From Candidatus Marinarcus aquaticus (lineage in GTDB: Bacteria > Campylobacterota > Campylobacteria > Campylobacterales > Arcobacteraceae): a stretch of DNA of 64,000 nt. The notes beneath the pieces are model-generated. The model searched no databases and was not told the origin of the DNA. It saw only the letters and a program-made list of their open reading frames with translations. Both the position numbers and the translations under genes were made by a program. Positions 2,701 through 55,618 of the stretch are shown one piece after another. The first letter of the stretch is position 1, and every line of letters starts with the position of its first letter. The DNA lies in NCBI RefSeq assembly GCF_004116335.1, contig NZ_PDKN01000002.1, positions 248,001-312,000 of the forward strand, read 5' to 3'.

Positions 2701-2746
2701 CACATGCCAAAGCCTTGCTTTGGAATCTCTCTTGTGCCTCCGTTCG

Positions 2747-2800
2747 GAGGTCACGCTTTGCTACTTTTCTCAACGCGAGAATAAGTAGCGCAAAAGCGCT
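2747..2800 (+). repeat. Degenerate direct repeat, copy A
   Basis: Reads GGAGGT, then GCTTTGCTA, a CTTTTCTC/GAGAATAAG hairpin arm pair, and ends in an AGCGCAAAAGCGCT hairpin. The same order of elements recurs at 3123-3184. Confidence 0.5.
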
Positions 2801-3122
2801 GTTTTTAGGCATTGCCATACCACAAAAAATTTCCAAATCAAATTAACCTACGGGTAACTAAGCGTATCTTTCTTTACTCTCCGAGTAGCTATCGCCCAAA
2901 TAATATTGTCATAGAAAAAGTAGATTACTTCATAGAGTAACGAATGGAAGAAAAAACTCAACATCTGCAAGAGCGCAAATGTGGAAAATATTTTGTGGAG
3001 AAAGTCGAGGACTGTTTGAGTAAATCAATAACCTAAATGGATATTGATTTACGAGTTCCGCAGACGAATAAAATATTTTTTGATTTGAAGGTATTTGCTT
3101 TAGCAAACTCTGAAGCCGTTGA

Positions 3123-3184
3123 GGAGGTTCTTTGCTAACTTTCTTTACGGAAAAAGAAAGTGTAAGCGAAAAGCTTTAGCTTTT
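3123..3184 (+). repeat. Degenerate direct repeat, copy B
   Basis: Reads GGAGGT, then CTTTGCTA, the ACTTTCTTT/AAAGAAAGT hairpin, and ends in GCGAAAAGCTTT. It matches copy A in order and partly in sequence, with compensating changes that keep hairpins in the same places. Confidence 0.5.
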
Positions 3185-3245
3185 AAAGAGGTTTTCATAA
3201 TTAATACCTACTATCATTTTAATTCTCTATTTATGCTTATTTAGT

Positions 3246-3251
3246 TACAAT
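3246..3251 (+). promoter_or_regulatory. Possible -10 box for the orphan gene
   Basis: TACAAT 27 nt before the ATG at 3278, followed by an AAAGGA ribosome site. No -35 element is evident, which is normal for this phylum. Confidence 0.4.
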
Positions 3252-3277
3252 CAAATGTATATAAAGGAATTAACTTC

Positions 3278-3778
3278 ATGATTGAAAATAGAAGAAGATT
3301 TATAGAGAAAATTCTTTTTTCATTAGTATTAATCAAATTAAATTTATTGTCAAATTCTATTGATGTGAAACAGAAATTAAAACTTTATAAAGTGGAAGAT
3401 ATTTCTTCTGAAAGTACAGAAGGTGGTTTAATCGAATATCTATTTGATATGGATAATAAATTAAAAAAAGTAAATATCATTCAATGCTGGGAAAGAGGAA
3501 AACTTGAAGTAGAATTATTTATTAAGGAAAATAGAATTTTTAAATTAATTGAGATTAAACAAAAATATAATCGACCTTTTTATTATACTCAAGAAATAGC
3601 TCAAGAATTAGGTGATAATGAATGGTTTGATGAAAAGAAAAAAAATGTAATTACCACTATCATCTATAAAGATAATAAGTTGGCATATCAAACAATTAAT
3701 AATCAGATAACAAAGTTTAATGAAAATTTATATGCACAATATGTAAATTATGTAAATAAAGTAAAAGAAAAAATATAA
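3278..3778 (+). CDS. Hypothetical AT-rich orphan protein, 166 aa
   Basis: I do not recognise this protein. The first about 25 residues hold a basic start and a hydrophobic stretch (ILFSLVLIKLNLLS) that could be a weak signal or anchor, followed by a charged, beta-rich-looking body and a lysine-rich tail. Base composition is visibly more AT-rich than the flanking operon, and five of its six arginines use AGA. It lies directly after the hairpin-rich segment and before ybgC, so segment and gene may have arrived together. The ATG is preceded by AAAGGA at a workable spacing. Confidence 0.55.
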   Translation: MIENRRRFIEKILFSLVLIKLNLLSNSIDVKQKLKLYKVEDISSESTEGGLIEYLFDMDNKLKKVNIIQCWERGKLEVELFIKENRIFKLIEIKQKYNRPFYYTQEIAQELGDNEWFDEKKKNVITTIIYKDNKLAYQTINNQITKFNENLYAQYVNYVNKVKEKI

Positions 3779-33630: not shown

Positions 33631-33802
33631 ATATCTAAGTATAACGGGATTTCCATTGTTGAGGGTCCGATACTGTGTTTATGTGTGTAATCGTAGTCGA
33701 CTGGTGTGTAACGGTTCAACTGAACTGTTCCTTAAGGTTGCCTCTTACGTGCAGTTATTGGCTTTTGTGGGCCATTTTGATGGTTAACGTCTACTTGGAT
33801 AT
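33631..33802 (+). ncRNA. ssrS: Probable 6S RNA
   Basis: A 172-nt structured, relatively GC-rich stretch between hemD and purD. ATATCTAAGTA (33631-33641) pairs with TACTTGGATAT (33792-33802); inside it CCAT/ATGG (33653-33656/33780-33783), GGTCC/GGGCC (33664-33668/33769-33773) and CTGTGT/GTGCAG extend a rod, capped by an AACGGTTC/GAACTGTT hairpin (33710-33729). A long interrupted rod with internal bubbles and about 170-180 nt fits 6S RNA, which mimics an open promoter and binds RNA polymerase. I recall 6S RNA lying near purD in related genera, but that is memory. A purD leader riboswitch is the alternative. Confidence 0.55.
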
Positions 33803-55147: not shown

Positions 55148-55235
55148 TGGCAGACAGGAAGGGATTCGAACCCTCGATGGCGTTAACCATACCCGCGTTC
55201 CAGGCGAGCTCTTTCAACCACTCAGACACCTGTCT
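55148..55235 (-). tRNA. tRNA-Ser (GGA)
   Basis: On the minus strand a 7-bp acceptor stem AGACAGG/CCTGTCT, discriminator G and an encoded CCA end; long variable arm typical of serine tRNAs; TTCGAAT in the T loop; anticodon loop CTGGAAC gives anticodon GGA. The 88-nt gene lies 2 nt after the convergent GGDEF-EAL stop. Confidence 0.93.
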
Positions 55236-55302
55236 ACTTAAAAGATGAGAATTATAACCAACTAAAGTTCAACAAAGGCTTAGTTTGAGATAAAATGATA
55301 AG

Positions 55303-55618
55303 AAAAGGCACAGCTGTAAGCCGAGTTTTGTATTAGACAATAATTTATCTCGTTGTTTAATTGCTTAAACACTCTTGCGAAGAGAGGGATTGTGAAGTTC
55401 CCACCACCTCTTCTTGCTGCTGGTTGGGTTTACAAAGCACTTAAGATTGCTCAAAAGTCTGGTGGTCTCTTACACCACCGTTTCACCCTTACCCAAAATG
55501 GGCGGTCTACTCTCTGTTGCACTGTCCCTTAGGTTGCCCTAGCCATTCGTTAAATGGAACCATACTTCACTGCAGCTCGGACTTTCCTCTTGTAAAAAGC
55601 TATTGTCTGCTGTACCTG
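55303..55618 (-). ncRNA. rnpB: RNase P RNA
   Basis: On the minus strand the conserved 5' block GAGGAAAGTCCGAGC and the conserved 3' block AACTCGGCTTACAG are present. The outermost helix P1 pairs GGTACAG (5' end, complement of 55610-55616) with CTGTGCC (complement of 55307-55313). A TACAAT on the minus strand (55625-55630) is correctly spaced for a start near 55618. It is the catalytic RNA that matures tRNA 5' ends. Ends are estimated from P1. Confidence 0.93.

Follow-up and report, generated by a model that had tools for sequence, protein, structure and literature searches.

A folded module with invariant internal loops in a likely dispersed, non-autonomous repeat element of Candidatus Marinarcus aquaticus and other bacteria

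Introduction

The window analyzed here, a stretch of 64,000 nucleotides from Candidatus Marinarcus aquaticus, contains at positions 2701-3277 a segment crowded with hairpins. The question raised by this locus is whether the hairpins are under selection and, if so, as part of what kind of element. A preliminary description made from the sequence alone had suggested that structure is under selection here, the candidates being a dispersed repeat, a non-autonomous element and a structured RNA. This proposal is supported by the comparisons reported below. What is conserved is a long hairpin in which two internal loops (GA/GCA and CTGTYTGAG/GAGTT) are invariant and the stems covary freely, and positions 2701-3192 likely represent a decayed copy of a repeat element that is dispersed and non-autonomous.

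Features of the element in the window

The hairpins are as previously described, and no open reading frame of 60 or more amino acids was found in 2701-3277. The recognizable element extends from about 2701 to a right end near 3192; the remaining 85 bases (3193-3277) are the ordinary leader of the next gene and lie outside it. The features of the element are listed in Table 1. The fold of 2980-3192 was better than that of dinucleotide shuffles on both strands (z -4.4 on the plus strand and z -5.2 on the minus strand, with 0 of 200 shuffles as good), as was the fold of 2701-2815 (z -3.7). In this genome the stems are rich in A and T; complementarity within the 14-bp stem 3020-3033/3039-3052 is 93%. 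Both ends are present in the window copy, but of the two modules only the right-hand one; in intact relatives a second, left-facing module lies at the place matching 2815-2984 of the window. The ACACATGCC... segment outside the left end is common to the copies G000:C2:389561 and G000:C12:41189 (G000 being the window genome) and to genome G009. Neither a terminator-like site after the right tail nor an above-chance promoter-like site was found in the window element.

The hairpin-dense, non-coding character claimed in the preliminary description thus held, as did its ordered landmarks: GGAGGT (2746-2751 and 3123-3128), TTTGCTA (2757-2763 and 3131-3137) and AAAGC after each hairpin. Its claim of two copies of one module (2747-2800 and 3123-3184) held only in part. 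These are better described as the inverted outer tails of one palindromic element, since intact copies in relatives show them as such.

Table 1. Features of the repeat element and its parts, in window positions
Feature	Position	Strand	Remarks	Basis
Extra hairpin CCAAAGC/GCTTTGG	2707-2723		Directly outside left end	
Left terminus TCTCTCTTG	2726-2734		TCTCWTGAAG in intact copies	Comparison with ends of intact copies
Left terminal hairpin GTGCCTCC/GGAGGTCAC	2734-2754			Fold
Left tail hairpin GCTACTTTTCTC/GAGAATAAGTAGC	2755-2797	-	Counterpart of right tail	Copy alignment and fold
Centre and left-half remains	2815-2984		No recognizable left core module in the window copy	
Outer stem P0, AAAATATTTT (2985-2994)/AAAATATTTTT (3070-3080)	2985-3080	+	Encloses core module	Sequence and fold
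Core module, model R1	2998-3073	+	P1 GTC/GAC; loop GA/GCA; P2 GGA/TCC; loop CTGTTTGAG/GAGTT; P3 variable hairpin	
P3 apical hairpin, loop TAAAT	3020-3052	+	Contains the nested stem 3021-3051 of the preliminary description	
Conserved spacer GAAGCCGTTGAGGAGGTTCTTTGCTA	3112-3137	+		
Right tail hairpin ACTTTCTTT/AAAGAAAGT	3138-3161	+		
Right terminal hairpin AAAAGC/GCTTTT and right end AAAGAGGT	3169-3192	+		

The element is adjoined by an ORF of 166 amino acids (3278-3778, plus strand) without a significant Pfam match; the syntenic gap in the congener G001 has other genes. Ordinary RNAs elsewhere in the window are the RNase P RNA (55301-55618, minus strand), a tRNA (55151-55235, minus strand) and a purD RNA motif (33693-33800, plus strand).

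Copies in the genome and in the Arcobacteraceae

A similarity search of the window genome gave five matches to the element. A second long copy (C2:389561-390065) has 86% identity over 482 bp; C4 and C12 carry partial copies. When the two long copies are aligned, nearly everything matches except the apical hairpin, which has been swapped wholesale for unrelated but still paired sequence (AGTAAATCAATAACC...GGATATTGATTTAC versus AGGAGAAAAAAGTGC...GCACTTTATTTGAC). The second copy also carries a 22-nt insert at TTT^GC within the conserved spacer, equivalent to window position 3133/3134.

In a search of 60 relatives, pieces of the element were found in 12 of 41 genera. A covariance model of the core finds matches in 40 of the 104 genomes of the family, at most 38 in any one genome; of 397 genomes sampled from the phylum it matches 17, two of them from another family. 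Within the Arcobacteraceae the core is paired with a second, inverted core inside a palindrome bounded by short terminal inverted repeats, and copies are found at unrelated sites within a genome. Most modules are arranged as divergent pairs, with about 250 bp between them. Intact copies (in G001, G014, G030 and others) are imperfect palindromes ending in TCTCWTGAAG...CTTCAAGAGA, with terminal inverted repeats of about 10 bp. From the end inward they consist of terminal hairpin, tail hairpin, spacer and core module, with the other half inverted; the modules of both halves read outward. Genome G014 has many copies at unrelated sites, 460-590 bp long and 82-93% identical over that length.

Two other arrangements were observed in the family. 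Genome G028 carries a head-to-tail array of module plus tail with a spacing of 559 bp (L024, C1:330573-333613), adjoining a ribD-like gene. Several elements of genus g14 (L251, L253, L264) are followed at their right end by another repeated sequence (...ATAAATATAAGAAAATGTAGTTT...GACAAATAGATATACAT...).

Structure and covariation of the core module

The core is about 76 nt long, and the consensus of 29 modules has the invariant columns GAGGACTGTYTGAG and GAGTTCCGCA. When 21 aligned modules were scored against the stated structure, 88.2% of the cells were paired and 78 cells had changed on both sides, versus 25 in shuffles. The covariation score was 0.497, versus 0.209 for shuffled alignments and 0.06-0.15 for slid structures. 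Taken alone this test is biased towards structure, as alignment and structure were built from the same sequences. A test without this bias used 88 distinct modules, collected with a pattern in which only the loop and P2 strands are specified. Here P1 was paired in 76-95% and basal P3 in 75-95%, with 32-50% at variable positions after shuffling. A cross-phylum alignment including the window module scored 0.432, versus 0.116 when shuffled and 0.01-0.06 for slid structures. The P2 columns of this alignment are uninformative, being invariant by construction of the pattern; P2 does vary within the Arcobacteraceae (GGA/TCC versus AAA/TTT).

One strand of the module is the one under selection. At stem positions flanked by Watson-Crick pairs and with near-duplicates removed, G-U pairs outnumber A-C pairs by 83 to 31 (p 6e-7) on the strand bearing CTGTYTGAG, with the caveat of phylogenetic dependence. 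Equal numbers would be expected of a double-stranded palindrome, in which every G-T is read as A-C on the opposite strand, so the excess shows selection of one strand as a folded single strand. The bias is compatible with RNA and also with single-stranded DNA, in which G-T is a milder mismatch than A-C. We lean slightly towards RNA read outward over single-stranded DNA exposed during replication as the recognized strand; in the absence of transcription data the matter is not settled.

Distribution across bacteria

The GTDB genome collection was searched with the pattern GGACTGTYTGAG-N4..24-GAGTTCCGCA. At least 120 places matched, versus a chance expectation of about one (our arithmetic, from 257 Gb, two strands, 21 gap lengths and about 21.5 specified bases). 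The same folded core is present in at least nine bacterial phyla. Going by their record titles, the matches come from Beta- and Gammaproteobacteria, Nitrospirota, Lachnospiraceae, Coriobacteria, Bacteroidales, Patescibacteria, Myxococcota, Spirochaetes and Gastranaerophilales. Many matches come from metagenome bins, and isolates are also represented (Dechloromonas hankyongensis, Niveibacterium, Sulfuricella). Several loci in other phyla show the same divergent module pairs, 190-260 bp apart. The copies examined in Lachnospiraceae, Bacteroidales and Patescibacteria are mostly single long hairpins, and single modules without tail occur in several phyla.

The preliminary description had mentioned tails like ACTTTCTTT/AAAGAAAGT in intergenic repeats of other bacteria, and this held: the tail hairpin recurs downstream of modules elsewhere, in 14 of 35 cases (one upstream) and, in the GTDB-wide set, in 16 of 83 (none upstream). 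It had also named what would refute it, a unique segment varying without compensation; the segment is instead multi-copy, and its stems change with compensation.

The element is almost absent from plasmids and phages. No DNA similarity to the Arcobacteraceae copies was found in either; with a Dechloromonas copy as query there were hits in two plasmid records, covering only the tail or a part, and none in phages. Among 17 pattern matches in IMG/VR only one was convincing, L108 in a GC-rich prophage. Escherichia coli gave no match. No Rfam 15 family was found for the window (also at E<=1) or for 16 loci from other phyla, a Pfam search with spurious translations of the element gave nothing relevant, and nothing on its sequence or its spurious peptide was found in the searchable literature.

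Sites and gene neighbourhood

Three sites were compared among relatives. In the congener G001 the window site is occupied by two other genes, without a module. At a site adjacent to valS the element is present in G014, a GGDEF-EAL gene takes its place in G089, and G030 is also without the module. At the third site the element is complete in G014 and G030, and only a 67-bp remnant is found in G089. Thus sites vary and copies decay. None of these was a clean, precise empty site, given the GGDEF gene at one and the remnant at another. By eye no target duplication was evident at the copy ends examined, a clean empty site for precise comparison being lacking. As neither these nor a partner protein was found, movement is inferred from dispersal and was not observed.

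In other phyla divergent intergenic regions are avoided (module in 2 of 43), and in the wide set the copies are placed downstream of genes. No recurrent partner protein or gene family was found beside the module at 123 loci. Defence-type neighbours were seen (AIPR, AbiTii, putAbiC, a Gabija-like helicase, TIR and a cytosine methylase), without background control. At L065 (G102:C28:33000-37600) a small membrane gene and a toxin-antitoxin-like gene pair lie between two complete elements; the 2-kb interval between modules in this genome was considered as an autonomous copy and rejected on account of that content. In Gallionellaceae (L146, L155, L199) divergent modules 0.9-1.3 kb apart surround single small genes in a cassette-like arrangement. 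The ORFs between them were rejected as transposases, being unrelated small genes of different families, one encoding an 8xMP membrane protein.

A short insert was noted in passing. In 23 of 104 family genomes the 22-23-nt sequence CTCAAAGAGAGTGCAAGCACAA(G) occurs as an insert behind TTT (mostly TTT^G), 42 times in all, and its hosts are the present element, another hairpin repeat (AGAGTAACTCGTTACTCT...) and genes. It lies in the second copy of the window genome at C2:389992-390014 (L002/L337), also at L330 and L331, and is absent at window position 3133/3134. In G102, and apparently in G101, 23 nt of it split the reading frame of an integron integrase gene. None was found in IMG/VR. It behaves as a very short site-specific insert.

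Comparison with known systems

REP, REPIN and BIME repeats are mobilized by TnpA_REP (RAYT) and tagged by GTAG or CGTC (PMC3733652, PMC8266576). They resemble the present element in their short folded units, frequent inverted pairs, chromosomal dispersal in many phyla and conserved unpaired bases; in these repeats such bases are recognized single-stranded, as may be the case here. The present core differs in its length of about 76 nt, its two internal loops, the lack of a GTAG/CGTC tag at the stem foot and stems that are not conserved between copies. Membership is not supported by the tag, which is missing from the invariant columns of the consensus, nor by a cognate Y1 (HUH) transposase, as PF01797 is absent from G000, G001 and G089 among others. 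By our count PF01797 occurs in 19 of the 40 carriers among the family genomes and in 17 of the 64 that lack the module, and the module is nearby at only one of 20 Y1 loci. The window genome and other high-copy genomes are without any Y1 transposase.

Integron attC sites and OTH-22-1, an attC-like motif of several phyla defined by RYYYAAC (PMC8632094), are likewise folded single strands with a variable stem and a few invariant unpaired bases, found in many phyla; some copies of the present element also flank cargo genes, as attC does. Identity was rejected, as the consensus of 29 modules has no RYYYAAC/GTTRRRY boxes. Nor does the integron integrase fit, a complete one (TIGR02249 above the cut-off) being present in only two of 12 carriers, G001 and G089, and absent from G000 and G014. 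A group II intron or retron is not supported either, with PF00078 in only six of 12 carriers and in none of G014, G030 and G028. Since each is missing from some high-copy genomes, neither Y1 transposase, integron integrase nor reverse transcriptase is required as mover.

Bacterial MITEs (for example ERIC, CREE and MITEAba12) share length, terminal inverted repeats, intergenic position and multiple copies. The terminal inverted repeats and the dispersed copies of G014 qualify, and the Arcobacteraceae form is MITE-like. In contrast to MITEs, the element conserves structure rather than end sequence and spans phyla; no target duplication was evident at the ends examined, and no recurrent partner protein beside 123 loci. 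Structured intergenic motifs of Arcobacter sp. L, unnamed or of the HRC type including HRC-4/sig70 and some also in other phyla, were reported (PMC6429828) by the laboratory that described OTH-22-1. They are similar in being structured, intergenic and from a related genome; whether any consensus is the same was not checked.

Explanations considered

Taken together, the data are likely best explained by a dispersed, non-autonomous, structure-recognized repeat, although the protein that recognizes or moves it is unidentified. A host protein acting in trans would recognize the folded strand through the two loops, by analogy with IntI on attC and TnpA_REP on REP. Copies would then spread through chromosomes or persist in them, chiefly downstream of genes. 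Anything beyond recognition as a folded strand is inference. It is possible that template-switch correction of quasi-palindromes keeps some of the stem pairing, which would count against this explanation; it would not keep the invariant loops or the G-U bias. The best reading is probably a new family of such repeats, new relative to searchable databases and literature, identity with HRC-4/sig70 or the unnamed Arcobacter motifs being unchecked.

According to the strongest rival, the element works as a functional structured RNA, either a 3' UTR or a small RNA, with protein binding or the protection or termination of transcripts as its role and repeat behaviour only as its mode of carriage. The one-strand bias of G-U over A-C, the outward reading of the modules in both halves, the position of wide-set copies downstream of genes and rarely between divergent genes, and the fold (z -4.4) speak for it. 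Against it stand the lack, in the window copy, of a terminator-like site after the right tail and of promoter-like sites above chance, the lack of association with a gene family, and the absence of the element from 64 of 104 family genomes, which makes it dispensable. We consider this rival possible but less likely than not. An ordinary MITE, moved as double-stranded DNA by a DDE transposase with incidental hairpins, would fit the inverted repeats of about 10 bp, the length of 460-590 bp and the tens of near-identical copies per genome. It is unlikely, as cross-phylum conservation concerns the internal loops and not the ends, wobble pairs are strand-asymmetric, no target duplication was seen at the ends examined, and several phyla have single modules without tail. 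Chance hairpins in decaying AT-rich intergenic DNA, paired only through mutational correction, would agree with the AT-rich stems of the window genome, and quasi-palindromes do self-correct. This explanation is all but excluded, and is refuted for the core module by the recurrence of the invariant loops across genera and phyla and by the shuffle controls for covariation and fold.

Implications

The structure-recognized repeat may also be read more boldly, as a pan-bacterial class of folded nucleic-acid elements with its own dedicated binding or recombining protein, predating the phyla in which it is found or repeatedly transferred between chromosomes, and with a loop-recognized hairpin distinct from attC, REP and IS200/605 ends. 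As that protein is unidentified, we offer this only tentatively and do not favour it. The same loop bases in Campylobacterota, Proteobacteria, Bacteroidota, Bacillota, Actinomycetota and Patescibacteria imply a very old recognition system or wide transfer, and this range contrasts with the near-absence from plasmids and phages. With the covariance model now available, carriers and copies can be counted, and the element would account for a class of spurious small ORFs in annotation.
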